The notes below the pieces were generated by a model. The model saw only the letters and a list, made by a program, of their open reading frames with translations. It had not been told where the DNA came from and ran no database searches. The position numbers and the translations under genes were made by a program. From the NCBI RefSeq assembly GCF_011300215.1, contig NZ_CP049866.1, positions 3,101,001 to 3,165,000 on the forward strand: a DNA stretch of 64,000 bases, read 5' to 3'. This DNA is from Nocardioides piscis. GTDB taxonomy: Bacteria; Actinomycetota; Actinomycetes; Propionibacteriales; Nocardioidaceae. This document shows positions 9,864 to 25,795 of this stretch, piece by piece (within the stretch, counting starts at the first letter, position 1; every line of letters begins with the position of its first letter).

Positions 9864-10142
9864 ATGGCCGCCAAGGATTCGCCCACCGTGCGAATCACCA
9901 CCGCGCCCTCGAGCGCGTCCGAGGACATCGCGGGCCGCCAGCGCCGCTATCTGGTCTCGATGGCGATCCGGACCGCGTGCGTGATCGGGGCCGTGGTCGT
10001 GGGCCCGGGGATCCTGCGCTGGGTGCTGGTCGCCGGGGCCGTGCTGCTGCCCTACGTCGCCGTCGTCCTGGCCAACGCGACCCAGCGCAAGGACGACGGC
10101 TTCGAGCTCCGGGAGACCCGGGCCGAGCGAGAGCTCCGCTAG
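9864..10142 (+). CDS. Small DUF3099-like membrane protein
   Basis: A 92-residue protein. A basic N-terminal segment with AGRQRRYLVSMAIR precedes two hydrophobic helices (ACVIGAVVVGPGILRWVLVA and AGAVLLPYVAVVLAN) and a charged C-terminus. The layout matches the small actinobacterial DUF3099 family, whose function is unknown. TACGAT at 9852-9857 ends 6 bases before the ATG, suggesting a leaderless start. It is divergent from dodecin. Confidence 0.75.
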   Translation: MAAKDSPTVRITTAPSSASEDIAGRQRRYLVSMAIRTACVIGAVVVGPGILRWVLVAGAVLLPYVAVVLANATQRKDDGFELRETRAERELR

Positions 10143-13332: not shown

Positions 13333-15066
13333 TCAGCTCTCCGGTTCCCAGATCGCCGCGCCTCCCAGCAGGGTGGCGGAGTCCCCAGATGGTGGAAGCA
13401 CCGCATTCATGCCGCGCTCGGAGAGGGTCACGACCGGATCGAGGGTCAACGGCAGGGCGACGAACTCCTCGAACAGGCCCGCCTCGATGGCCACCTGGAT
13501 GTCCCGGGCGTCATAGACGTCGGCAGTCTCGTCGAGCGCTGCGACGAGCTTCCCGCGCTCCTTGCTCCGGGTGCCCGTCAGCGGGGAGGCCTCCTTGCCG
13601 CCCCACACGGCGCTGATGTCCTCGGGGCTCTCGGGCAGCGGGACCCTGGTCAGCACGGCCTGCCACCCCTGCCCCTGGGCGAGGGCCGGCTCGATGTCCG
13701 CTGCGCCGCAGTCGCGGACCGCCCACCCGCCCTCAGCGGCAGACCTGCTGAGCTCTCGGAACACCCCGGTGGCGAACGCGTCGTCGTTGTCGTGGAGGAC
13801 GCACACCTGGGTGCCGGCCGCGACGCCGGCCTGGGCGCGCTCGACCTGGGCGTCCGCGACAGCGGACTCGAAGGCTGCTCGGAAGCCGGCGTCCTCGACC
13901 GAGATCTCGTAGCCGTCGGACTCGGGTGGGAACAGCAGCGATTGGCTGTTGGCGTAGGTGCTCTCCCACTGACCCGCTCCAGCCGACCGCATGTCGGCCG
14001 CCGACGTCGCGCGCAGGAACGCCCGGCGGGCATCTCGCGAGCGGAAGACACCCGCGTCGGCGCGAAGCACCAGCGTCCACAGCTGCCCTGCGTGGGTCTC
14101 CGCCAGGTGGTGGTCGCGACGCTTGAAGTGACGCACGGTCAAGAAGTTGTCCGGAGTGGGGCTGACCTGCACCACGTCGAGGTCGTCCGGGAAGCCGGCG
14201 AGGAGATCGTCAGCCGCCACGACCTCGACGCGTTCGTAGGACGGCGGAGAGTCCCCTCTGTAGGAGCGGTTGACCTCGAGCGTGAGGCTGCCGGCACCTG
14301 GCTCCGCGCTGTCAACGGCGGTCACCAGATAGGGACCGCTCCCGACGGCGAGTTCCTCAGGGACGTCGCCGCCGCCGACATCGAAGCCTGAGCTCCACGT
14401 CTCGGCGATCTCGGCGAGGTCTTGTTCATCACCGTCGATGATCGCGTCGATCACCGCCTGCTTGGCCTCCATCGGGTCCTCGACACCGAGCGCCGTCTTC
14501 CCCACGACGTGCGCGGGCAGCGTCACGTCGAGTGCTGTGTGCCAGCCCCGCACCGGCACGGTGTAGGAGACGTCGATGCGCCGCTTCGACTCGTCCATCT
14601 CTGGCACGGCGGTGCTTCGGCGTAGATCGCTGCGCACGGAGTCGAAGTCTCCCGCTGTGGCGTTCGAGCCGGCGGCCCAGGCGAGCAGGAGGTCGGCGGC
14701 ATCGATCGGGATGCCGTCGGACCACGTCCGCTCCGCCAGGTCGTAGCGGACAGTGAAGGACGTGAGGGAGTCGTCCACCACGGCGACCGTCCCGAAGCTC
14801 TCGTCCTCGACGACCTCGCCGCCGGCCAGGCGTGCGAACTGGTCGTGCGTGATGGCGGCGATCTCCCGGTTGCCCTCGGTGTCGCCCTTCCTGGTCGTTG
14901 GGTTGAGGCTGGTCAGGCTGTGCGACCAGCCGACCCTGACAGAGGACCCTTCGACGACCGAAGGAGGCAGGTCCGGCGTGCACGCAGTCAGGAGGAGGGC
15001 ACCGACCAAGGGGGCAGCGGCGATCGAGTGGGAGCCAGGGCGCGCTCCGCGAGGTCGTGGCCTCAC
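13333..15066 (-). CDS. ABC-type solute-binding lipoprotein, family 5 (orphan)
   Basis: A 577-residue lipoprotein. After a basic start, the hydrophobic AAAPLVGALLLTAC ends in a lipobox cysteine at about residue 29. The mature part resembles family 5 (peptide/nickel) binding proteins: WSHSLTSLNP at the start, ITHDQFARL, and the WSDGIPIDAADLLLAW motif typical of the family. It should bind a peptide or similar ligand outside the membrane. No permease or ATPase gene adjoins it; its neighbour is the polyamine-synthase-like gene. The start is a GTG at 15066. Confidence 0.85.
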   Translation of the reverse strand: MRPRPRGARPGSHSIAAAPLVGALLLTACTPDLPPSVVEGSSVRVGWSHSLTSLNPTTRKGDTEGNREIAAITHDQFARLAGGEVVEDESFGTVAVVDDSLTSFTVRYDLAERTWSDGIPIDAADLLLAWAAGSNATAGDFDSVRSDLRRSTAVPEMDESKRRIDVSYTVPVRGWHTALDVTLPAHVVGKTALGVEDPMEAKQAVIDAIIDGDEQDLAEIAETWSSGFDVGGGDVPEELAVGSGPYLVTAVDSAEPGAGSLTLEVNRSYRGDSPPSYERVEVVAADDLLAGFPDDLDVVQVSPTPDNFLTVRHFKRRDHHLAETHAGQLWTLVLRADAGVFRSRDARRAFLRATSAADMRSAGAGQWESTYANSQSLLFPPESDGYEISVEDAGFRAAFESAVADAQVERAQAGVAAGTQVCVLHDNDDAFATGVFRELSRSAAEGGWAVRDCGAADIEPALAQGQGWQAVLTRVPLPESPEDISAVWGGKEASPLTGTRSKERGKLVAALDETADVYDARDIQVAIEAGLFEEFVALPLTLDPVVTLSERGMNAVLPPSGDSATLLGGAAIWEPES

Positions 15067-15195
15067 CGGCGGAAGCCGTGTGGGGTCGTACGTCGCCCCG
15101 TACCGCCGTTCAGCATGGCAGCGAGGTTATCAACGGTCGAACGGTGGAGAGGGAGCCTGTGCTTCCCGACACGAGCGCCGGCGCGTCCCCCAAGT

Positions 15196-15257
15196 CGCCC
15201 GGGTGGCTTCTCCGGGCGGCGACACGCACGGCGGGTCGCTGTGGGAGAAGACCCGCC
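15196..15257 (-). terminator. Tandem hairpins at the end of the T7SS-like locus
   Basis: Just after the last gene of the minus-strand T7SS-like locus (stop at 15280) there are two hairpins. The first has an 8-bp stem (15230-15237 with 15250-15257). The second has a 7-bp stem (15196-15202 with 15212-15218). Neither is followed by a U run, which is common for actinobacterial terminators. They mark a likely end of transcription before the separate lipoprotein operon. The 213-base gap holding them has no convincing gene. Confidence 0.55.
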
Positions 15258-15279
15258 ACCTGGGGGTCGAGGGACACCC

Positions 15280-15699
15280 TTACGCTCCCGGGTAGTCACC
15301 GTCGGTCCAGGGCACGGGCCTGCCGTCACGGATCGTGGCGAACGACTCGACGGGCTCGGGCCGAGGGGGGTTGGGAGCTGCCAGAGCAGCGTTCATCGCC
15401 TCGATGAACTTCTCAGCCGCCTTCTGGTTCTTCCGACCATCCATCAACGACTTCGGCGCCCCCGGCACCACCGTCACAGTCAAATGCAGCACCGACCCTG
15501 CACCCTCCCCCGTCACGGTCGCCGCGAAGGCGTGACCCCACGACATGAGGGTCTTGCCGCTCACGAACTTCATCTGGTGCAGTTCGTTGCTCAGGCCGCG
15601 GATCTCGTAGGGGGCCTGTTGCACCACGGCTACGAGTGTCGTGAAGAGGGCGTGTTCAGACACCTGCGAGTTGAGGCTGATGTTCTTCTCTGCGCCCAT
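15280..15699 (-). CDS. Unrecognised 139-residue protein, last gene of the T7SS-like locus
   Basis: No family is recognised. The protein is soluble, with alternating strand-like segments (FAATVTGEGAGSVLHLTVTVV) between an N-terminal helix and a C-terminal helix (NQKAAEKFIEAMNAALAA). It ends in a Pro-rich tail. An upstream in-frame ATG at 15711 is possible. It follows the membrane protein gene by 57 bases and ends before two hairpins, so it is the promoter-distal gene of the locus. A chaperone, adaptor or immunity role would be speculation. Confidence 0.6.
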   Translation of the reverse strand: MGAEKNISLNSQVSEHALFTTLVAVVQQAPYEIRGLSNELHQMKFVSGKTLMSWGHAFAATVTGEGAGSVLHLTVTVVPGAPKSLMDGRKNQKAAEKFIEAMNAALAAPNPPRPEPVESFATIRDGRPVPWTDGDYPGA

Positions 15700-15756
15700 G
15701 GGGGACTCCACTTCCTGGATGACGGAACGATGCGTGACGGACGATCACACGTGTGG

Positions 15757-16530
15757 TCACCGATGACGGATGACGCGCCCGTCGGGCAGCGACTCCTGTT
15801 GTGACCACGTGCCGGGCGGCATGACGATCATGTTCGAGACGTCCGCATCGTCGACGAGACCGCGTCGGACCAGCTGCTCGAGCACGACCGCCCGCTGAGT
15901 GCGCAGCCAACGCTCTTCGGGCGAGATCTCACGCTTGCGCTCATGGGCGCTCAGTCCTGGCGCGGGCTTGGCGACGACCAGGAAGAAGAGGAAGGCAAGG
16001 AGTGCCGCCGCTGCCGTGATGTTGGCCATCAGCGCGACCGAGGGCCACACGTCGGTGAGAGGAGTCGTGGACGTGGCGAGCAGGAATGAGCTCCCCCCGG
16101 ACGCCAGCGCAGTGAGGCCACTCACCCCGAGGTTCTCCCACCCTCGGCGCCGCGACTCCAGCCACGTGTAGACGGTGAAGAACGTGACCAGCAGCCCGCC
16201 GCCGAACACCAGCTGCACCACGATGCCCCACCCGGTCGGCAGCTCCCTGTCGAAGACCACGAACGCCACCACGAACCCGAGGCCCACGGCCGACGCACCG
16301 AGCGTCGGCACGACGAACGGCGCCAACAGCAGCGCCTTCAGGAGCTTCAGCAACAGGCCCTTCGCCCCCTGCGCCGGAGCACGCTGGGCGGCCCTGGCCA
16401 ATTCCTCAGACGTCGGCCCCGGCTCCGCCATGATTCGCGCCTCGACCTCGGCCCAGTTGATGGGACCTGGGAAGTCGGTCGTCTTCGCCCACCGCTGCAA
16501 CTGCTTCAAAGACACCTGTGACACTCCCAT
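15757..16530 (-). CDS. Unrecognised polytopic membrane protein of the T7SS-like locus
   Basis: A 257-residue protein with a soluble N-terminal ~70 residues and four hydrophobic helices: LLLAPFVVPTLGASAVGLGFVV, GIVVQLVFGGGLLVTFFTVY, an Ala/Ser-rich third segment, and ITAAAALLAFLFFLVVAKPAP. A charged C-terminus (ERKREISPEERWLRTQ) follows. ATG 16530 is preferred because the longer form from 16587 would overlap the upstream gene by 25 bases. Its place beside the EccC/EssC-like motor makes it a candidate membrane component, but I see no similarity to EccB, EccD, EccE, EssA, EssB or EsaA. Confidence 0.65.
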   Translation of the reverse strand: MGVSQVSLKQLQRWAKTTDFPGPINWAEVEARIMAEPGPTSEELARAAQRAPAQGAKGLLLKLLKALLLAPFVVPTLGASAVGLGFVVAFVVFDRELPTGWGIVVQLVFGGGLLVTFFTVYTWLESRRRGWENLGVSGLTALASGGSSFLLATSTTPLTDVWPSVALMANITAAAALLAFLFFLVVAKPAPGLSAHERKREISPEERWLRTQRAVVLEQLVRRGLVDDADVSNMIVMPPGTWSQQESLPDGRVIRHR

Positions 16531-16562
16531 CGACGATCGACTCAACCAGCGCAGAACGGCTC

Positions 16563-17186
16563 TCAGGTGCTCTGCGGCGCCCGCCACCGCAGTGTTGCGA
16601 CACAGCTGTCGAAGAGGTACTTCGTCTTCATCAGGAACGGATCGTCGCTCGCATCCTCAGGCACGCGCCCGAAGCCGGCCACCAGCTGGAGAGCTCTGCG
16701 ACGTCCGGTCCCGGGGATCGGCGTGAGGTAGATGATCGAGTGACTTATCACGGTCTGTGAGCCCACGCGCACCGGTCGCTCACGCTCGAAGCGCAGCGTC
16801 CGCTTGTCGCCTGCCAAGGGTGTCGCACCCTCCTCCCTGATCAGGGTGCGAGCCAGGTCGTCCAGGTTCTGACCCGCCTCGGCCCGTCGCTCGGAGGCGA
16901 TGATGGAGGCAGGGAGCCAAACCGTTGAGTCGTCCGGCTCGGTCGGCGAGAAGAATGCGAACGCACCTTGGCGCCGCATGGCCTCGAAGGACTGCTTCAC
17001 CAGCGGTTGGAGCTCGGCGTACGCCTGGGGCTTGTGCGCCTCCATCAGCCTCTTGCGAAGTGCGCCGAGCATTCCGTCGAGCGTCGTCTCGTCGACAGCT
17101 TGACGCGTCCATCCAGGCGGCAGTGTCATCTCGAAGTCCGGCACGGTTGTCGCTCCCAGCTCAGCTCGCAGATCAGAAACCGTCAT
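16563..17186 (-). CDS. Unrecognised 207-residue protein, possible PsbP/Mog1-like fold
   Basis: A soluble protein without signal peptide. The opening DFEMTLPPGWTRQ, central strands (RVGSQTVISHSIIYLTPIPG) and closing CVATLRWRAP resemble the layout of PsbP/Mog1-like sandwich proteins, a weak fold-level impression only. The start overlaps the stop of the upstream 217-residue gene by 4 bases, showing translational coupling. It lies between the LXG-like gene and the membrane protein. Chaperone or immunity roles are possible but unsupported. Confidence 0.6.
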   Translation of the reverse strand: MTVSDLRAELGATTVPDFEMTLPPGWTRQAVDETTLDGMLGALRKRLMEAHKPQAYAELQPLVKQSFEAMRRQGAFAFFSPTEPDDSTVWLPASIIASERRAEAGQNLDDLARTLIREEGATPLAGDKRTLRFERERPVRVGSQTVISHSIIYLTPIPGTGRRRALQLVAGFGRVPEDASDDPFLMKTKYLFDSCVATLRWRAPQST

Positions 17187-17836
17187 CGGCTGGCCTCGAA
17201 GTCCCAGGGTTCCTCGCTCAGCAGACCTTGCGGCGATACACCTTCGAACGCCGTGCCATCAGTCTTGTTGATCACGCGCATGTTGTGCATGAGCACGACG
17301 AGGGCCGGCATCGTCAGTCCGACGAGCGGAGTCAACGTCTCGTCGAGACTCAGCATGACGGTGATCTCGTCGTTGGCGAAGATGAAGTGCACCCCGGTGA
17401 TCTCGACGTCCTGCTGGCCCTCGTCCATCCTGACCATCCGCTGGGTCACGACATGCAGGCCGCGACCGAGGTGCGGGGCGTCGACGGGCTGGACGACGGC
17501 GTCGTCCAGCTCCGTCCACGCGGGCATGGCCGCGCTCGGGAGGATGTTGACGTGACACATGGCCGTCTGCCCATCGAACGGCGGCCACACCTGCAGCATC
17601 GCGACGGACTGAGCCTCGTCCCTCATCTCGAGCGCCTGCTCGAGCAGCGCCCGCGCAACGTCGGCCGTGACATGGTCCTCGTCCCAGCCGACCATGCCAT
17701 CGAGCTCGGCGGCCGACTCGGCGAGCCATTGCTCGCGAGAGTCGGCGTCGAGACCGGAAGGAAGAAACCTCCACCCGTCGATGTCGAGGTCCTTGTCGAC
17801 GAGGTCGATCACCCATTCAGCTTCGTTCATCGTCAC
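17183..17836 (-). CDS. Unrecognised 217-residue protein of the T7SS-like locus
   Basis: A soluble, acidic protein with DGWRFLPSGLDADSREQW near the start, a helical segment (VARALLEQALEMRDEAQSV) and alternating strands (DVEITGVHFIFANDEITVMLS). No catalytic or metal motif is visible. It starts 4 bases after the stop of the LXG-like gene and overlaps the next gene by 4 bases, so the three are translated together. An ATG six bases downstream (17830) is an alternative start. Confidence 0.62.
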   Translation of the reverse strand: MTMNEAEWVIDLVDKDLDIDGWRFLPSGLDADSREQWLAESAAELDGMVGWDEDHVTADVARALLEQALEMRDEAQSVAMLQVWPPFDGQTAMCHVNILPSAAMPAWTELDDAVVQPVDAPHLGRGLHVVTQRMVRMDEGQQDVEITGVHFIFANDEITVMLSLDETLTPLVGLTMPALVVLMHNMRVINKTDGTAFEGVSPQGLLSEEPWDFEASR

Positions 17837-17840
17837 GACC

Positions 17841-19106
17841 CTAGGAGGCGAACTTGACGAAGAGCGACTTGGGGATCGTCGGGACGCTGCCGCCGAACTG
17901 CTCGGCGGTGAGGTTGGCGTAGTTGAGGTTGCGCCCGGTGGTCGAGAACAGCGTGACCGCCTGGTCGATCCTTGCGAGCCTCCTGACGGCGTCCAGGCCG
18001 CGCGCGTCCGCGAACTCCAGTCCCTCGTAGAGCTTCTTCTGACCGCGGTAGAAGCTCGTGAAACCGTTCCGTGACCCGGTGAAGAGCTGTCGGAACCCGG
18101 CGGCGGCTCCGTGGTTCTTGAAGATCGCCGCCAGGCCGGCCTTGTTGAGGATTTGTTGACCGCTCACCAACTTCGCGGCCTGCGCTCCAGCACCGTCCAG
18201 AGCCTTGATCCCGGTGGCTGTCCTGACGATCCTCGAGGTCGATCCGGCACCGAGGTTCAACACCTTGGTGACCGCAGTGACCTTGCAGAACGGAAAAGCA
18301 CCCAGTGCCGCAAAGGCGATGTCTCTCCCGGAGCGCTCGCCGTTCTTGTAGGCCATGATGGTGGTGATCAGCAGGAGTGCACCGACGGCGAGTGCGAGCG
18401 CCGCCATCAGCGGGCCGCCGATGATCAGTGCGGCGACGCCGACGATCAGCGCGGCGACCTCGAGGAAGTCGACGAGGCTCGCCCAACGACTGTCCTTGAT
18501 GGAGCCGGAGAGCTCGTTGCCGATGTTTGTCACCGCGTCGTCGAAGGCGGTCTCCCACGAGTCGTAGCCGTCCTCGAAGTCCTTGGCCGCATCGCACCAG
18601 TTCTCGTAGGCGACGAGCTTGGCCTGGTTGTTGGCAGCCCCGCTCTTCTGCGCATCGGTCGGGCCCTTGTCCTCCCCGCCGAGCTTCGACATCTCCGCCC
18701 CGATGTCGAAGACATCCTCGGGGTTCGTCGGTCCGTCCTTGTCCCCCGGCAGACCCTCGTAGACGGCCCACAGCGACTCGCAGTCGTCGACTGCATCGTT
18801 GATCACCGGCTTGCACTCCGCCAGAGCAGTGCCGTAGTCCTTGATCACCGGGCCGACTGGCTTGTAGAGCTCCCCTGCTTCGCGCAGCTTCTCGAAGGAC
18901 TCGCCGATGGAGTCCTTGAGCTTGTCGATCGCCTTGCCCTGCTGACTGCCGTCGCCCACTGCGTTGTTCTTGATGGTCTCGAGAGTCGTGGCGCTGTCCA
19001 GCATCATCTGTCCGAGGGTCTCGATCTTCTCCCCGCGGTCGATGATGTCGCCAGGCCTTCCCTCGACGCGCTCGATCTCGAGCTGTCGATCAGGCGATCG
19101 ATCCAT
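17841..19106 (-). CDS. LXG/WXG-like candidate secreted substrate with a membrane hairpin
   Basis: A 421-residue protein. Residues 20-120 are helical and lack a signal peptide, and include a Trp in SLWAVYEGLPG and another in YENWCDAAKDFEDG. The pattern recalls N-terminal targeting regions of LXG or actinobacterial T7SS-secreted proteins. Residues 213-252 form a strongly hydrophobic helical hairpin. The C-terminal ~160 residues are basic and match no toxin motif I know. ATG 19106 has AAGGAG nine bases upstream; an in-frame start 42 bases earlier lacks this. Its position after two WXG100-like genes supports a substrate role. A membrane-active effector is conjecture. Confidence 0.65.
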   Translation of the reverse strand: MDRSPDRQLEIERVEGRPGDIIDRGEKIETLGQMMLDSATTLETIKNNAVGDGSQQGKAIDKLKDSIGESFEKLREAGELYKPVGPVIKDYGTALAECKPVINDAVDDCESLWAVYEGLPGDKDGPTNPEDVFDIGAEMSKLGGEDKGPTDAQKSGAANNQAKLVAYENWCDAAKDFEDGYDSWETAFDDAVTNIGNELSGSIKDSRWASLVDFLEVAALIVGVAALIIGGPLMAALALAVGALLLITTIMAYKNGERSGRDIAFAALGAFPFCKVTAVTKVLNLGAGSTSRIVRTATGIKALDGAGAQAAKLVSGQQILNKAGLAAIFKNHGAAAGFRQLFTGSRNGFTSFYRGQKKLYEGLEFADARGLDAVRRLARIDQAVTLFSTTGRNLNYANLTAEQFGGSVPTIPKSLFVKFAS

Positions 19107-19246
19107 CGGTGCTTCTCCTTGGTGGTCTAGTGATGCGGTGGGCTGCACCGGTGTGCCGGACGACGACGAGTCTGCGGGCCATCGCCACCGCCAGAATTCG
19201 GCGACGGGAAACGCGTCAGTGGGCCACGATGCACCCGAACTGGGGC

Positions 19247-19543
19247 CTACACGTTGCTCAGCTGAGTCGCTGTTTGGGAATCCCAGTCCCTGATGCCCTC
19301 AATGACACCCTTGGCGTGGTCCTTGACACCTGACAACCCGTCTTTGAGCTGATTGCGCTTGTCGTCCCATCGCTCTTCGAAGTTTCGAGCCTTGTCACGA
19401 AGATCGCTGTCGCCGAAGGGGTCGCCGATGGCCGACTCCAGCTCCTCGGACAGCGAGGTGGCGTTCTCGAACTCGGTGATGATTTCCTCGAGCTGCGTGA
19501 CGACCTCCTCGAGGTCGTCCAGCTTGACGTATATGTCAGCCAT
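19247..19543 (-). CDS. WXG100-like small helical protein (second of pair)
   Basis: A 98-residue all-helical protein of ESX/WXG100 size. Helix one (YVKLDDLEEVVTQLEEIITEF) and helix two (DLRDKARNFEERWDDKRNQL) flank a turn at SAIGDPFGDSD, where canonical members have W-x-G. A third short helix region follows, and the protein ends DWDSQTATQLSNV. The W-x-G tripeptide is absent, so the call rests on size, heptads and the adjacent motor ATPase. AAGGA lies nine bases before the ATG. It probably pairs with the 95-residue protein. Confidence 0.75.
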   Translation of the reverse strand: MADIYVKLDDLEEVVTQLEEIITEFENATSLSEELESAIGDPFGDSDLRDKARNFEERWDDKRNQLKDGLSGVKDHAKGVIEGIRDWDSQTATQLSNV

Positions 19544-19575
19544 GATGTGTTGCTTCCTTCCGAGCTACCGGGACC

Positions 19576-19610
19576 GGTGGAGCCGCAACCGGTGACGGTG
19601 CGGCTCCACC
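19576..19610 (-). promoter_or_regulatory. Hairpin between the two WXG100-like genes
   Basis: A perfect 12-bp inverted repeat (19576-19587 with 19599-19610) has an 11-base loop. It starts 10 bases after the stop of the first WXG100-like gene (minus strand) and ends 32 bases before the start codon of the second, upstream of its ribosome-binding site. No U tract follows. It could be a partial terminator or an mRNA-stabilising element that sets different levels for the two small proteins. Confidence 0.6.
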
Positions 19611-19620
19611 AGACGAGCGA

Positions 19621-19908
19621 TCAGCCTCCGGCGAGCTGGTCGTCGAGGTCGCGGATGGCCTGGGCCATGTCACGCAACGCCTGAGCCATCTCCGTGACGC
19701 CCTCGGAGGCGTCCTTGAGACCGGTGGTCAGGTCCTCGTAGCCCTCCTGGAACTTGCCTGAGGCCTTCTCGGTCTTGAAGCCATCCTGCACCAGTTCGTC
19801 GACGTAGCCCTGGCACTCGGTCAGGGCGTTCTCGATGGACTCCTTGCCGTCGTCAAGCTTGAGGGCGGTGCCCTCCATCTCGTCGTAGGTTGCGCCGAAG
19901 TCGCTCAT
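19621..19908 (-). CDS. WXG100-like small helical protein (first of pair)
   Basis: A 95-residue protein of two long helices with strong heptad pattern. The first helix ends near CQGYVDELVQ. The turn has DGFKTEKASGKFQEGY, where Phe takes the place of Trp of W-x-G and is followed by the family-typical A-x2-F-x3-Y spacing. Helix two is DLTTGLKDASEGVTEMAQALRDMA. Such proteins dimerise and are exported by EccC/EssC motors. An AAGGACGG ribosome-binding site precedes the ATG. The motor gene ends 87 bases upstream. Confidence 0.85.
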   Translation of the reverse strand: MSDFGATYDEMEGTALKLDDGKESIENALTECQGYVDELVQDGFKTEKASGKFQEGYEDLTTGLKDASEGVTEMAQALRDMAQAIRDLDDQLAGG

Positions 19909-19995
19909 GATTCAGTCCGTCCTTTTCGTGACTTGCGAGATCTTTGGAATGTCCCGCCCCTGGTCAGTGAGTGGCTTTCCCACCACGGCTGCATC

Positions 19996-22900
19996 CTAAA
20001 CATCGGCAATCGGCAGATGCATCGTGATCGCTCGACCCGCCTGGACGAATATCCCCCGCCCGTCAGGGAAATCGGTCCGTTTGACACGTCCGAACGGCAC
20101 CTTGAACAAAGTTTCACCGTCGTGCGTGTCCGGTTTGAGGGCGATTCCCTGCCTGTCCGCCTTCCACGCTCCGAGCACACCCGAGCCGCTCCCCGCACGC
20201 GAGATGTCCGACTCGCCGACCAACAGGTGCTCGCTGTTGGAGATGGCCTGCATCAGGGCGCGCATGCCGCGGTCGGCCGGCCCGTCGATGAGATGCGGCA
20301 CGTCCTCGATGACCACCATGATCCGGCCGGTCGCCGACTCCTCGGCGACGATCTCGGCGAGCTCGGTGGCCAGCTCCTTCTGCTCCTCAGGGCGAGTGGC
20401 GCTGCGCACCCAGTCGCGATAGGAACCCAGCTCGGCGCGGCGCCCGCCGAAGTGGAAGAGCTTCACGTCGGGGTCGAACTTCTCCATCGCCGTGATCAAC
20501 GCCCGCAGGGCGTTGGTCTTCCCGGACTGCGGTGGGCCGGTGATGGCGAACAGGCCGACCGGCTCGAATCCGCGGGGCGCCAGGGTGTCCTCTGCGATGC
20601 CGAACACAGGAAGGCCGTCGACGCGGGCCGGCATCTCGGAGCAGGAGACACGCACGGGAAGCGACCCGATCCTGGGCACATCCTGCGCACCCCGCTCTCT
20701 CAGCTCAGCAGCGAGGACGTCGAGGGCCTTGGTCTGCTCGGCCACGTTGGTGGTTCCCCCGAGCGCGGCCATCTGCACCTCGTTCTTGTCGACCGAGGCC
20801 CGGCCTGGCGGGGACGCGTCGCTCAGCATGTCCTTGGGTGCGCCCAGCAGCGTGTACTGGTTGGGGTCGGCCAGACGCAGGACGACCCGCCGGGAGATGT
20901 TGGCAGCCACCGCTGTCGGAACGGCACCGCCACGGTCGGCGGTGATGGCGGCATGCACGCCCAACGGGCGACCTTCGCCCAGGACGCGCATGAACACCTG
21001 GTAGAACGGCGCGCGTGCCGAGCTGATCTCCCACTCGCTCTTGAACTCCGGGTAGTTGTCGATCAGCAGCACGATGCGGGGCAGTGTCGGGTCGACCAGC
21101 TCGCGATATTCACTGAGGTTCGCAGCGTTGGCGTTGGCGAACAGCTCCGAGCGACGGTCCAGCTCCTGGCCGAGCTGGCGGAGCAGACGCTGCACGCGCT
21201 CGGCATCGTCGCCGTTGATGATCGATCCGACGTGCGGAAGACGTTCGATCGCCGCCAGCGCCCCAGAGGCGAAGTCGAGACCGAAGACTTCACAGGCGCC
21301 GAGGTCTGGGCGCATCCCGGCCGCTGTCGCGATGGTCTTCAGCACCGTGGTCTTCCCGGACCCCGAGGTGCCGAAGACGATGATCGAGCCGTCCCGGTCG
21401 GGCACGAAGTAGGTCGCGTTCTGCTGCTGCTTCTCCGGCAGGTCGGCCAGGCCGAGCAGGATCTGACCGTCACCCTCGGCCGGAAGGTCGCGCAGGTCCA
21501 CGACATCGGCGAGGTCGTCGAGCCACGGCCGACGCGGCGTCGGGATGCCCGCCATGTCGGCAGCCCGGGTCAGCGTGGTGACGACCCGCTTCTGGTCGTT
21601 CGGGCCCAGGTCCTCGTCGTGGGAGTCGGACTCGGGAGGCCGCTCGGGCTCCCACTGCACGGTCGAGCCGAAGCGGAGCTCGGCGGCCTTGACGTCGGCC
21701 ATGACGTCTTCGTTGGTGCTGGTCCAGCCGCCCACGTAGGCGGACTGGAACGGTGTGAGGCGTCCCGGTCCGGTCTTGGCGATTCCTCGTCCGGGCAGGC
21801 TCGAGGGGAACGTCGCCGCGACGGGGTCGTCGACCACGTCCTTGGAGTCTGACTCGTCGGCCATGCGCAGGGCCACGCGCAGGTTGGTGTTGGCTCGCAG
21901 GTTGTCCTTGATGACGCCGGCCGGCCGCTGCGTGGCCAGGATCAGGTGGATGCCGAGGGACCGGCCCCGCTGCGCGACGTCCACCACCCCGTCGACGAAC
22001 TCCGGCACCTCGCCGGCGAGCGCCGCGAACTCGTCGATCACCAGCACCAGCGCAGGCGGGCAATCGGGATCCTGCCGCCGTTCCAGCTCCAGCAGGTCCT
22101 TGGCCTTCTTGCGGTTGAACAGGTGCTCGCGGTGGTGCAGCTCGGCCCGCAGGCTGGTGAGAGCCCGGCGCACCAGGTGGGGACTCAGGTCTGTCACCAT
22201 GCCGACGCAGTGCGGCAGGTCGACACAGTCCGCGAAGGCCGACCCACCCTTGTAGTCGACGAACAGGAACGTCACGCGGTCCGGGCTGTGCGCGGAGGCC
22301 AGCCCGAGCACCCATGCCTGCAGGAACTCCGACTTGCCGGCGCCTGTGGTGCCTCCCACCAAGGCGTGCGGCCCCTGACTGCGCAGGTCCAGGGTCATCG
22401 CATCACTGGCACCCTGACCGATGATGGCCCGGAGGTTGCCCGACTGCCTCAACCTGGGACGCTCGGCAAGGCTCCGGTCGATGATGGTGTTGTTCTGACG
22501 CCACCGTTCGATCACAGCCTCGGGATCCTGCGCGGTCTCCTGTCCCACGAGCGACAGGAACATCACGGAGTTGGGGATGTCGGATGCGTCCTGGATCACC
22601 GTGCTGGCGTCGACCACGGGAGCCATCCGCTTCGCGAAGGTGTGCATGTAGTCGTTGGAGACCCCCTCAACCCGGACGTGCTCGTGAAGGTCGCCGTTGC
22701 GCACCAGGCCCACAGTGGTGTCGTGCAGGCCGGCGGTGACGTCGAGGAAGCTCCGGCAGGTTGCTGGGAGCGACTCGACCGTCGGTGAGCAGAACACGGC
22801 GTGCACGCCGACGTCTGCCCCGCGCTCGAGCACCTGCACCAGGCGTGGCCGGTCGACGGGGGCGTCGTCGGTGACGATGACGATCACCGACACGCGTTGC

Positions 22901-24492
22901 TTGGTCGCCCCCTCCTCGGCCGCCCGGTTCACATCGGTGCCGTACTGCATCGGGTTCCACGTCTCCGCGAAGGGTCCGCGTGGCTCCGGCTGCTTGCCGG
23001 CTCGAAGAACGTATTCCTCCAAGGCGCTCAGCAGGGCGTTCGCCGTGGGTGCTGAGTCGGCGAGGGGCAGGTCCTTGAACGGACTCGTCTCACTCGTGGT
23101 GTGCGGCAGCCACTTCATCCACTCGAGCTCGGGCGTCCAGTCGCTGCCTGCGATGCCGACTGCGACGACCTCGTTGGGCGCATGCAGGCCGAAGAGCTGC
23201 ACCGCAATGCCGCGGAGGGCATCGGAGGCAGGGCCCGCCGGTCCGGCGACCCCGACCGAGCCCACGGCGCGCAGCGACTCGAGGACCGGCACGTCGTCGA
23301 CATAGCGATAGCGGTCGCGGAGTCGGTCGAGCCGTTCGATGTATTCGGGCAGGCCGTCCTGGGTGTCCTGCTCAGCGATGGAGTTGCGAGACGGCGCGCG
23401 CGTCGTGCCGAGGCGGAGCGCCAGGAAGTTCCAGTGCTCAGGTCGACGCGTCCACAGCATGGGGCCGAGCCGGACCGCGTGCTCGAACACCTCGGCCACG
23501 GGAGGCACCTCGTCGTTGCGCGCGCCCTCCTCCTCCGGCTTCGACCTGAACAGGACCTCCTCGAGCTTCTCGAACTGTCGCTCGAAGAGCTCCATCTCGT
23601 ACTTCTTCTTGTTCGACGTCTGCGTGCGCATGTTCATGAAGTTGCCCATCGCCATGAGCGGCGTCATGAAGATGAGCAGCAGCGCCCGCTCTCGCCCGGT
23701 GATCGCATAGATCGCGAGGGCCATGATGATCGGCGCGACCAGGATCGTCCACGGGAACACCCGCCCGGCCTGCTCTGTCGGCATCCGGGGCGGCGGGTGC
23801 GCGGTGCCCGGATAACGTACGTCGACGCGCGGGCTCCGGTTGAAGTGCAACCCCCCTCCACGCTCGAGGATCTCGCGCTCTCCCACCTCGAAGTCGCTCG
23901 CCAGCTGGAGCACGAGAGTCGTGGCGCCGATGACGATCGGTCTGTTCGGGACGAGTCGGACGCGCTGGACCGGCACGCCGTCGACGAGCACCCCGTTGGC
24001 CGAGTTGAGGTCGACGAGCTCGATCCAGCTGCCGACCTCGATGCGCGCATGCAGCTTGGAGACCATCGGGTCGTCGAGCGCGATGTGGTTGGCGGGCGCA
24101 CGGCCAAGGGTCGCGTGACCCACGTTGAGGGGAAACTCCTGACCACGCAGCGGGCCAGCCGTGGCCACCAGGACGCCGACGTTCTTGCGGGTGTCGTAGG
24201 TCGCCGCGCCCGCAGACTTGTCCGGTCCATAGTTCACGACAGCTGCCGAGAAGCCCGAGCCGAGGGGTGCTTCGCCGATGTGGATCGACGGATCCAGAGG
24301 TTCCAGCGCGGATCCGTCAGGCGGGGCGACCGCAAGGGTGACCACGTCGCCGGCACCGACCAGCACGGAGCGCGCGGGATCCGACGTCGCGATGTGGCGA
24401 GCGACGTCGGCGGCCGTGGCCGTCGAGTCGGCCGTGACGACGATGTCCGCCGGCTCTCCCCCGTCGCGAACGAGCGTCAGCTTGACCTTCAT
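19996..24492 (-). CDS. EccC/EssC-like T7SS motor: FHA domain plus three FtsK/SpoIIIE ATPase domains
   Basis: A 1498-residue single-chain motor. Residues 1-90 have a short beta-alpha pattern that could be ubiquitin-like. An FHA domain follows at about 125-197 (GRAPANHIALDD, VSKLHAR, LNSANG). Two transmembrane helices lie at 247-263 and 268-286, then three ATPase domains. Walker A motifs are GGTTGAGKS (713-721), GTSGSGKTT (1041-1049) and GPPQSGKTN (1319-1327). Walker B is complete only in domain 1 (LVLVIDEF, 815-822). Domain 2 has VLLIDNY and domain 3 has MVVIEDV. It should drive ATP-dependent export of WXG100-like proteins. FHA domains before the helices resemble EssC of Firmicutes more than mycobacterial EccC. 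Confidence 0.92.
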   Translation of the reverse strand: MKVKLTLVRDGGEPADIVVTADSTATAADVARHIATSDPARSVLVGAGDVVTLAVAPPDGSALEPLDPSIHIGEAPLGSGFSAAVVNYGPDKSAGAATYDTRKNVGVLVATAGPLRGQEFPLNVGHATLGRAPANHIALDDPMVSKLHARIEVGSWIELVDLNSANGVLVDGVPVQRVRLVPNRPIVIGATTLVLQLASDFEVGEREILERGGGLHFNRSPRVDVRYPGTAHPPPRMPTEQAGRVFPWTILVAPIIMALAIYAITGRERALLLIFMTPLMAMGNFMNMRTQTSNKKKYEMELFERQFEKLEEVLFRSKPEEEGARNDEVPPVAEVFEHAVRLGPMLWTRRPEHWNFLALRLGTTRAPSRNSIAEQDTQDGLPEYIERLDRLRDRYRYVDDVPVLESLRAVGSVGVAGPAGPASDALRGIAVQLFGLHAPNEVVAVGIAGSDWTPELEWMKWLPHTTSETSPFKDLPLADSAPTANALLSALEEYVLRAGKQPEPRGPFAETWNPMQYGTDVNRAAEEGATKQRVSVIVIVTDDAPVDRPRLVQVLERGADVGVHAVFCSPTVESLPATCRSFLDVTAGLHDTTVGLVRNGDLHEHVRVEGVSNDYMHTFAKRMAPVVDASTVIQDASDIPNSVMFLSLVGQETAQDPEAVIERWRQNNTIIDRSLAERPRLRQSGNLRAIIGQGASDAMTLDLRSQGPHALVGGTTGAGKSEFLQAWVLGLASAHSPDRVTFLFVDYKGGSAFADCVDLPHCVGMVTDLSPHLVRRALTSLRAELHHREHLFNRKKAKDLLELERRQDPDCPPALVLVIDEFAALAGEVPEFVDGVVDVAQRGRSLGIHLILATQRPAGVIKDNLRANTNLRVALRMADESDSKDVVDDPVAATFPSSLPGRGIAKTGPGRLTPFQSAYVGGWTSTNEDVMADVKAAELRFGSTVQWEPERPPESDSHDEDLGPNDQKRVVTTLTRAADMAGIPTPRRPWLDDLADVVDLRDLPAEGDGQILLGLADLPEKQQQNATYFVPDRDGSIIVFGTSGSGKTTVLKTIATAAGMRPDLGACEVFGLDFASGALAAIERLPHVGSIINGDDAERVQRLLRQLGQELDRRSELFANANAANLSEYRELVDPTLPRIVLLIDNYPEFKSEWEISSARAPFYQVFMRVLGEGRPLGVHAAITADRGGAVPTAVAANISRRVVLRLADPNQYTLLGAPKDMLSDASPPGRASVDKNEVQMAALGGTTNVAEQTKALDVLAAELRERGAQDVPRIGSLPVRVSCSEMPARVDGLPVFGIAEDTLAPRGFEPVGLFAITGPPQSGKTNALRALITAMEKFDPDVKLFHFGGRRAELGSYRDWVRSATRPEEQKELATELAEIVAEESATGRIMVVIEDVPHLIDGPADRGMRALMQAISNSEHLLVGESDISRAGSGSGVLGAWKADRQGIALKPDTHDGETLFKVPFGRVKRTDFPDGRGIFVQAGRAITMHLPIADV

Positions 24493-24540
24493 CCATCACC
24501 CTTCTCAAGACAGCGGCGGTTGCCGCTGAGCACGCTTCGG

Positions 24541-25782
24541 TCAGGAGCTGAGCACTTGGGCAGTTCGCTCACCGATTCGTATCGTGTCCCCGAACCTGGC
24601 AGTCGCAACCTCGCCCGCTGCCAACGGCTGTTCACGCCCGTCGTGGACCACCGAGGTCCCGTTCGTCGATCCCTGGTCGATCACTTCCAGTCCAGCGCTC
24701 ACGGGCCGCAGCACGACGTGGACCTTGGAGATCGAGAAGTCCGGATCGGCGATCGCCAACGGGAGCGCCCCGTCGATCGCCACCGGTGAGCGTCCGACGA
24801 CAACGGGCGTCGAGACCGGGATGCGCTGGCCGTCGTCGAGGAGCAGGGTGACCCCGGTCCCGGCGTGCGGATGGGACACCAGCTGCGTCGACGCGTCGGA
24901 GGACGGCGCTGTCAGCGGAGCGCCGAGGCGAGGGCGGTCCGTCGTCGTCGATGGCATCGGCGCGGGCTCGCCGGCCTCGAAACCGGAGAGCCCCACGACC
25001 ACTCGCCTGTCGCCAGCGTGCGGGCGAGCCACGCCGAGGACTCCGGCACTGGTCCTGGCACCGGGGCGGTATCCGTTGGACCCGTTGAACGCGGCGTCGG
25101 TCGCGAGGGACGGAAGTCTCTTCACCCGTGGGGCGCCGGCCGAGGTCACGGTCTTGCGAGCGATGCGCATCCGCTTCTTGTCGAACGGATCGAGTCCCCG
25201 GCGCGCATCGACGAGCCAGACCCGCCCGACACGATCGTGCCAGCCACGGCAGCGATCCTCGCGGGACCACAGTGGCGAGGCCAGGAACAGGATGGGACCG
25301 AGGACGGTGAGGACCGGGAGCCACACCACCAGCGCCCGCAGGGTGACGAGCCAGAAGCCCGGCCGCTCGAGGGTTCTGACGTTGACCGCGCGTAGGCCGA
25401 CGACGAGCTTCCCCAAGGTGAACCCCCACCGCCCCTGCACCACGAGCTGAGCCACCAGCAACAGGATCGTCAACAGCAGCGTGACCGCGGCGACGACCAC
25501 TGAGAGCACGAAGTCGGGATGGTTGACGAAGCCGTACCAGGTGATCCGCCCGCTGAGCAGGCGACGGAAGAGCGGCAGCGAGAGGATCAGGAAGGGCAGC
25601 TGAAGCAGCCAGAAGAGACCGATGTCGATCGCCGCGGCACCGGCGCGACGGCCCAGGGGCGCCGACACCAGCCCCAGGGCTGCTGCGTATGCGGGATCGG
25701 GCGCGCCGTACGCGTCGAGGCCTTCCACGGGGCGGTCGCTGTCGGGCAGCTCCCAGATCGAAGCCTGGGACGTCATCGACAT
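24541..25782 (-). CDS. RDD membrane domain fused to a C-terminal FHA domain
   Basis: A 413-residue protein. The N-terminal RDD region (APLGRRAGAAAIDIGLFWLL, then helices and GFTLGKLVVGLRAVNV) gives three or four transmembrane segments to about residue 175. A basic, disordered linker leads to an FHA domain at about 325-410 (VVVGRSPVAI, SISKVHVVL, DQGSTNGTSV). FHA domains bind phosphothreonine peptides, so with the FHA on the motor it suggests Ser/Thr kinase control. It is the first gene of the T7SS-like locus, 48 bases before the motor gene. Confidence 0.88.
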   Translation of the reverse strand: MSMTSQASIWELPDSDRPVEGLDAYGAPDPAYAAALGLVSAPLGRRAGAAAIDIGLFWLLQLPFLILSLPLFRRLLSGRITWYGFVNHPDFVLSVVVAAVTLLLTILLLVAQLVVQGRWGFTLGKLVVGLRAVNVRTLERPGFWLVTLRALVVWLPVLTVLGPILFLASPLWSREDRCRGWHDRVGRVWLVDARRGLDPFDKKRMRIARKTVTSAGAPRVKRLPSLATDAAFNGSNGYRPGARTSAGVLGVARPHAGDRRVVVGLSGFEAGEPAPMPSTTTDRPRLGAPLTAPSSDASTQLVSHPHAGTGVTLLLDDGQRIPVSTPVVVGRSPVAIDGALPLAIADPDFSISKVHVVLRPVSAGLEVIDQGSTNGTSVVHDGREQPLAAGEVATARFGDTIRIGERTAQVLSS

Positions 25783-25789
25783 GCGCGTG

Positions 25790-25795
25790 ATGCTA
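25790..25795 (-). promoter_or_regulatory. Leaderless -10 box of the T7SS-like locus
   Basis: On the minus strand TAGCAT lies 7 bases upstream of the ATG at 25782, the spacing seen at many other starts in this window. It indicates that the T7SS-like locus has its own promoter, separate from the ABC exporter gene that ends at 25836. No clear -35 box is seen. Confidence 0.5.

Follow-up and report, generated by a model that had tools for sequence, protein, structure and literature searches.

The question raised by a nine-gene locus of Nocardioides piscis is whether a motor of the type VII secretion system (T7SS) kind can serve an export machine of its own without the membrane parts of either ESX or Ess. 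The locus lies within a 64,000-nucleotide stretch (G000:C1:3101001-3165000; hereafter the window, to whose first letter the positions below refer) of the 3.78-Mb single contig of the genome. Its nine minus-strand open reading frames (ORFs) have a high GC content at third codon positions, span 15280-25782 and run in the order A (RDD-FHA protein), B (motor), C (WXG100 protein), D-E-F-G, H and I. An initial annotation had described nine genes with an RDD-FHA protein, an FHA/three-ATPase motor and WXG100-like proteins but no canonical membrane parts, all of which was borne out, and had left three options: a minimal machine, membrane parts supplied by the unrecognised genes, or parts encoded elsewhere in the genome. 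The first fits best. The locus looks like an independent T7SS variant without ESX or Ess membrane parts, in which a motor that incorporates a predicted ubiquitin-like domain and a phosphate-sensing one is joined by a single membrane partner and by an exchangeable cassette of effector and helper genes. How it works, secretion included, we infer by likeness. Tentatively, as a reading that falls clearly short of even likelihood, we propose that one motor and one RDD-FHA protein would form the whole envelope-spanning core. In that reading the motor would have absorbed the ubiquitin-like regulator, the two FHA domains would provide phospho-gating, membrane-inserting effectors would have an Eag-type chaperone class of their own, and the system would be the minimal representative of a large T7SS family, linked to PFNA, that gene transfer has carried through the Actinomycetota. 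If the view of an independent variant is right, a type VII motor can export proteins without the membrane complex of either ESX or Ess, and the minimal channel is directly testable.

The motor scored 534 bits on the EssC family TIGR03928 (cut-off 778), its best NCBIfam match, and 345 and 308 bits on EccCa and EccCb, both under the curated cut-offs. Protein A matched the RDD family of Pfam at 66.7 bits and has the GR, S, H and NG residues in its FHA domain. In Pfam and NCBIfam scans no EccB, EccD, mycosin or EssB was recognised at the locus; EssB was also missing genome-wide (no PF10140 match at E up to 1), while EssA and EsaA were not recognised at the locus in general family scans and were not searched genome-wide. 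Neighbours were surveyed in 104 distinct loci (108 fetched; the duplicates L125, L157, L161 and L162 dropped), 30 of which have at least 57% motor identity and are called close. A homologue of A lay upstream of the motor in every close locus that extends 1.2 kb or more in that direction (23 of 23) and adjoined it in 22, among them L098, whose motor frame was called too long (the match starts at 10001); in L088 it lay 4.5 kb away. Within the close clade A was confirmed also by single-sequence search; outside it, counts of A may include FHA-only proteins, as the A and FHA hidden Markov models (HMMs) overlap. Protein C, which has GF in place of the usual WxG, was found in all 17 close loci whose downstream flank is 5 kb or longer.

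In one alternative reading, B would be an alternative motor that borrows shared EccB, EccD and mycosin from an ESX system elsewhere in the genome. Such a system does exist: a separate ESX locus (L008) encodes two WXG100 proteins and EccD (113.2 bits), EccCa (774 bits) and EccCb (742 bits), all three over their cut-offs, with mycosin (161 bits) and EccB (122.6 bits) full length yet below theirs, and G146, which together with the window genome G000 is nearest to the window, likewise has an ESX locus that encodes both EccB and EccD. The EccD of L008 is the sole PF08817 match over cut-off in the window genome, two weaker ones lying within larger frames. Yet L008 supplies EccCa and EccCb itself and therefore does not lack a motor that B could be, and the set lacking its own motor that the initial annotation had envisaged is not what was found. 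Among 28 motor-bearing genomes (the window genome and 27 of the 28 with a close-tier motor, all at least 90% complete; G141, with a shortened motor frame, was left out) the same 10 matched both EccB and EccD and 18 matched neither, a survey confined to close-tier motors, with genomes holding only more distant ones outside it. Likewise, EccD exceeded its cut-off in only 2 of the 23 genomes with close motors among the named loci (24 loci minus L085; genomes of unstated completeness), one more having a 19-bit piece below it. With neither EccB nor EccD matched in 18 of 28 genomes, and no EccD over cut-off in 21 of 23, there is no general dependence on ESX; it is the RDD-FHA protein A that accompanies the motor instead. 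We therefore rejected missing parts elsewhere as the main explanation, with EccE, EssA and EsaA not searched genome-wide, and consider borrowing from ESX very unlikely. At the ESX locus (G000:C1:733000-752999) there is also a 492-amino-acid ORF (L008:9507-10985, minus strand) with a weak YukD-like start (16.5 bits), and a second, weaker EccD match lies near the first in several sister genomes; the ORF could encode a second EccD that has diverged. A further WXG100-like stretch, at 26.3 bits narrowly under cut-off, lies at neither of the secretion loci but inside a 390-amino-acid frame at G000:C1:1112081-1112323.

The initial annotation had overlooked the predicted ubiquitin-like domain of the motor, the lipoprotein Z and, in relatives, a module of signalling and surface genes beside the motor. 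Residues 1-90 of B are predicted to form a ubiquitin-like domain followed by a canonical FHA domain. In an AlphaFold2 model of residues 1-211 (34 sequences; predicted local distance difference test score, pLDDT, 91.4; predicted template modelling score 0.60) residues 2-89 were folded strand-strand-helix-strand-strand ahead of the FHA domain, with ten-residue pLDDT means of 90-98 in residues 1-90. When the profile of residues 1-90 was compared with the EccD ubiquitin-like domain (8 clean EccD rows), none of 150 column shuffles reached the local or the global score, and the same profile matched 10 of 32 more distant motors at E < 0.01. Other results were weaker or gave no support. With a 10-row EccD set (one row misplaced, one cut) the local score was beaten by 1 of 30 and 1 of 150 shuffles, the global score by 0 of 150; a Pfam scan of the first 95 residues of B gave chance families only and no YukD; and in a fold search with the motor N-terminus the 50 matches listed were all to FHA domains, so that the search bears on the FHA part and not on the beta-grasp part.

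The initial annotation had also suggested that the unrecognised genes supply membrane parts, and had tied its reading to their conservation beside the motor. Conservation held for some of them and not for others. In the same 17 close loci as were used for C, D and E were each found in 10, F and G in 9 and Z in 8, whereas H and I occurred in one, L045, which stood alone among the scanned relatives. At 45-57% motor identity (18 loci) D was found in 12, E in 12, G in 13 and F in 11, and below 45% (43 loci) in 11, 12, 11 and 6, respectively, 31 of these loci having none of D, E, G and Z. The D-E-F-G cassette is thus frequent without being universal, and some loci, L091, L092, L102 and L104 among them, carry tandem copies of it. 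None of D to I matched a Pfam or NCBIfam family over cut-off. Proteins D, F and G do not look like membrane parts; they look like soluble partners of the effector. H does have transmembrane (TM) segments but, as its single occurrence among the close loci indicates, is no regular companion of the motor. The earlier count of only one other membrane protein was too low, since hydropathy gave TM-like segments in A (three), B, E (a pair, at residues 221 and 240) and H, and Z carries a lipoprotein signal.

Protein E had been called LXG-like. Pfam gives no such match, yet the label suits its kind, since T7SS_signal was matched by one homologue, though under the cut-off, and toxin tails are present in others. 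BLAST matches of E to many relatives end near residues 282-314, some reaching 345-366, and 3 of 11 scanned homologues have toxin families over cut-off, namely Ntox15 (55 bits), glutamine deamidase (44 bits) and Rhs repeats (258 bits); the tail of E in the window matched no known family. Given this conserved N-terminal half and the variable, sometimes toxin-bearing tails, E most likely belongs to the polymorphic effectors and acts through its tail. The small WXG-like partner D, here called Lap-like, has 53 homologous ORFs by iterated HMM (doubly represented loci included) and co-varies among relatives with the N-terminal half of E only. In counts that exclude the four duplicate loci and cassettes with an E tail of at most 60 residues, G follows the N-terminal half (0.73 given the tail, vs 0.24 with the tail given the N-terminal half), and F, distantly related to G by iterated HMM, follows the tail more (0.56 vs 0.37, each given the other). 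These values bear on whether F and G form a chaperone and a tail partner or are both immunity proteins, as the Mog1/PsbP fold is also that of the immunity proteins Tsi3 and TplEi. The double-immunity alternative is unlikely in our view, since G goes with the half of E that is conserved and has neither a TM-like segment nor a signal, and F has one hydrophobic stretch near its end.

The preferred role of G, a chaperone for the N-terminal half and TM pair of E, draws on its likeness to the Eag chaperones of the type VI secretion system (T6SS). These chaperones (PMC7773334) have the fold in which G was modelled (pLDDT 90.6), and the N-terminal domain of E is followed by a TM pair. They differ in that no sequence similarity of G to them was found, G having no Pfam family over cut-off and no sequence match to an Eag (DUF1795) chain in the Protein Data Bank (PDB), and in that the secretion system is another. 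The structural search was less clear than the model: the best Foldseek match for G was 3lyd (E 4.5e-5, TM-score 0.45), and Eag chains appeared only in the VIA list. A literature passage names the Mog1 fold as a mark of the T6SS, and the literature searched contained no Mog1/PsbP helper in a T7SS; if our reading is true, this chaperone fold, known from the T6SS, enters type VII secretion.

In the cassettes of L092, L104, L113, L133 and L136, the gene for E is followed by variable ones whose products have TM segments or are predicted lipoproteins; these may be envelope-acting immunity genes. The GC content drops to 0.63 in the C-D-E stretch (18001-20000), the lowest 2-kb value in the window, which is in keeping with a mobile effector cassette.

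Motor searches covered 245 genomes of the order, 396 of the phylum and named genomes (80 of 589 loci). The family was found in Microbacteriaceae, Nocardioidaceae, Micrococcaceae, Promicromonosporaceae, Demequinaceae, Propionibacteriaceae and others, the nearest motor among the named-genome matches listed being that of N. luteus (76%). A quick tree built from 77 motors gathered the family in one clade of 45 rows (Shimodaira-Hasegawa-like approximate likelihood ratio test 100), and the window motor lay far from the EccC of its own ESX. It fell in a 12-row group with 9 Microbacteriaceae and the same-genus G146 beside it, while G007, G017, G201 and G044, of the same genus, were placed elsewhere. 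This placement among Microbacteriaceae, with the genus scattered, suggests horizontal transfer of the motor. One contig filed as Sporosarcina (Bacillota; L142) carries a full actinobacterial cluster that closely resembles Arthrobacter loci, for which contamination or mislabelling seems likelier than transfer.

More distant relatives carry a further set of genes. In the 30 loci with less than 45% motor identity and at least 8 kb upstream, TgpA was found in 29, DUF58 in 26, a PP2C-type family (c13) in 26, a family without a Pfam match (c8) in 26 and a kinase in 24. MoxR and a protein of 1569-1763 amino acids precede DUF58; in the three examples scanned, that protein contained fn3 and eight Ig (Big_9) stretches. 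TgpA occurred in 6 of 19 loci of the close clade, and no window ORF was matched by the kinase (E up to 0.01), DUF58 or TgpA HMMs built from relatives. That the module is kept in distant relatives and missing from the window shows that the locus here is a reduced form of the module-bearing arrangement. The sole TgpA over cut-off in the genome lies in a cell-division cluster; this transglutaminase (C1:3410944; 151.5 bits) was considered as a displaced part of the module and rejected, as it stands among cell-division genes. TgpA matches beside the motor mostly scored 359-1127 bits, the weaker being broken-frame pieces in L105 (from 181) and L171 (230). The same loss could be taken to mean that the locus is a decaying or non-functional remnant of a PFNA-linked system like T7SSd (discussed below), deprived of its kinase, surface protein and transglutaminase. 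However, all nine ORFs are open, the Walker and FHA residues are intact, and several close relatives within Nocardioides, Micropruina and Microbacterium (L085, L089, L090, L095, L096, L100, L107, L119, L129) have retained A and B in a similarly reduced arrangement, which makes a remnant distinctly improbable.

Among published kinds the locus is closest to T7SSd, as a stripped variant of it. As described by Garrett, Higginson and Palmer (2024; PMC11217815), T7SSd shares with it the Actinomycetota, an EssC-like motor with an N-terminal FHA domain whose phosphothreonine residues are conserved (TsdC), a WXG100 protein (TsdA), the lack of a separate ubiquitin-like gene, and LXG- and Rhs-type candidate substrates, and, with the relatives of the locus, the presence close to the motor of a kinase with TM segments and of a large protein with Ig domains. 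The window differs in having neither the membrane kinase TsdD nor the large Ig-like surface protein TsdI (besides the motor, no gene above 750 amino acids was called in the 64 kb by crude calling; the genome outside the window was not searched for a TsdI-like protein), and in having the RDD-FHA protein, the D-E-F-G cassette, lipoprotein Z and a predicted ubiquitin-like domain inside the motor. With two defining features missing at the locus, we do not file it as a T7SSd member. The main text of PMC11217815 does not mention RDD, transglutaminase, Nocardioides, Arthrobacter or "Microbacteri". T7SSd was reported there to lack a ubiquitin-like protein; a domain fused to the motor would explain this, and if our reading is true the part reported missing may have gone into the motor.

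With T7SSa/ESX the locus shares an FtsK-type motor and a WXG100 protein, and differs in lacking recognised EccB, EccD and mycosin and in the FHA domain of its motor. With T7SSb/Ess it shares an EssC-like motor with FHA and an LXG-like effector with small partners, whereas no EssB is found in the genome, the motor is below the EssC cut-off and its first domain is predicted to be beta-grasp, not FHA. The distant relatives share with the Bifidobacterium PFNA operon (PMC8430577, PMC6803598) the kinase, Ig/FN3 protein, MoxR AAA, DUF58, transglutaminase, PP2C and FHA beside the motor, a set (kinase, FN3, MoxR, DUF58 and transglutaminase together) that the window does not hold. The main texts of both papers do not mention type VII, WXG or FtsK, and no link of PFNA with T7SS was found in the literature searched; if true, our reading would connect a secretion motor with a module of PFNA-like genes. 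A search combining RDD, FHA and T7SS found nothing, and that for T7SS in Microbacterium or Nocardioides nothing bearing on the locus.

Features of the locus, by position in the window
Feature	Position	Strand	Basis
A: RDD membrane domain (residues 41-186) and C-terminal FHA (327-404)	24541..25782	-	Pfam
B: 1498-amino-acid motor; predicted ubiquitin-like domain, FHA, 2 TM-like segments, 3 FtsK/SpoIIIE ATPase domains	19996..24492	-	
B residues 1-90: predicted ubiquitin-like (beta-grasp) domain	24223..24492	-	AlphaFold2 and profile match to EccD
B residues 104-197: FHA, phosphothreonine-site residues intact	23902..24183	-	
C: WXG100 protein, 95 amino acids	19621..19908	-	PF06013, 46.0 bits
D: small WXG-like partner (Lap-like), 98 amino acids	19247..19543	-	Iterated HMM, covariation
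E: candidate effector for secretion; N-terminal half conserved and with TM pair, tail variable	17841..19106	-	
E variable tail, about residues 290-435 of the 435-amino-acid ORF	17844..18281	-	BLAST match ends
F: tail-following partner of E; candidate immunity protein or tail chaperone	17183..17836	-	Iterated HMM, covariation
G: Mog1/PsbP-fold protein; candidate Eag-like chaperone of E N-terminal half and TM pair	16563..17186	-	Model, VIA-align, covariation
H: 4 TM-like segments; candidate cassette-specific immunity protein	15757..16587	-	
I: 143 amino acids (139 from ATG 15699), no assigned family	15280..15711	-	
Z: lipoprotein, beyond the nine genes first described	13333..15066	-	

The start of E was placed at an ATG 14 codons inside the listed ORF. 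The gap of 4 bases between E and F, the overlap of F with G and that of G with H, if the first start is used, speak for one E-F-G-H transcript. A single promoter and a pair of hairpins closing the locus, both proposed at first, did not hold up: a promoter consensus scan of the region gave 0 sites against 0.6 expected by chance, and a same-strand gene, X, stops just 53 bases before A begins; the 5 terminator-like sites of the region were no excess over the 4.0 +/- 1.8 of shuffles, and the gap between I and Z (15067-15290) folded no better than shuffles (z = -0.38). The original extent was right for the nine genes and too narrow at the far end, as Z recurs in close relatives, often as part of the locus. 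Orthologues of Z are rare: among 198 family genomes a strong match (66%) was found only in G146, with 14 others at 27-40%. In loci with Z and without D-E-F-G (L086, L087, L089, L090, L107, L164) other proteins with an MGMMLP start lie nearby, and two such proteins that were tested contain WXG100_2. Between C and Z, three of the loci with Z encode a protein of 72-100 amino acids with a YWYN motif (L107:15003-15221, L114:3234-3536 and L090:19067-19291).

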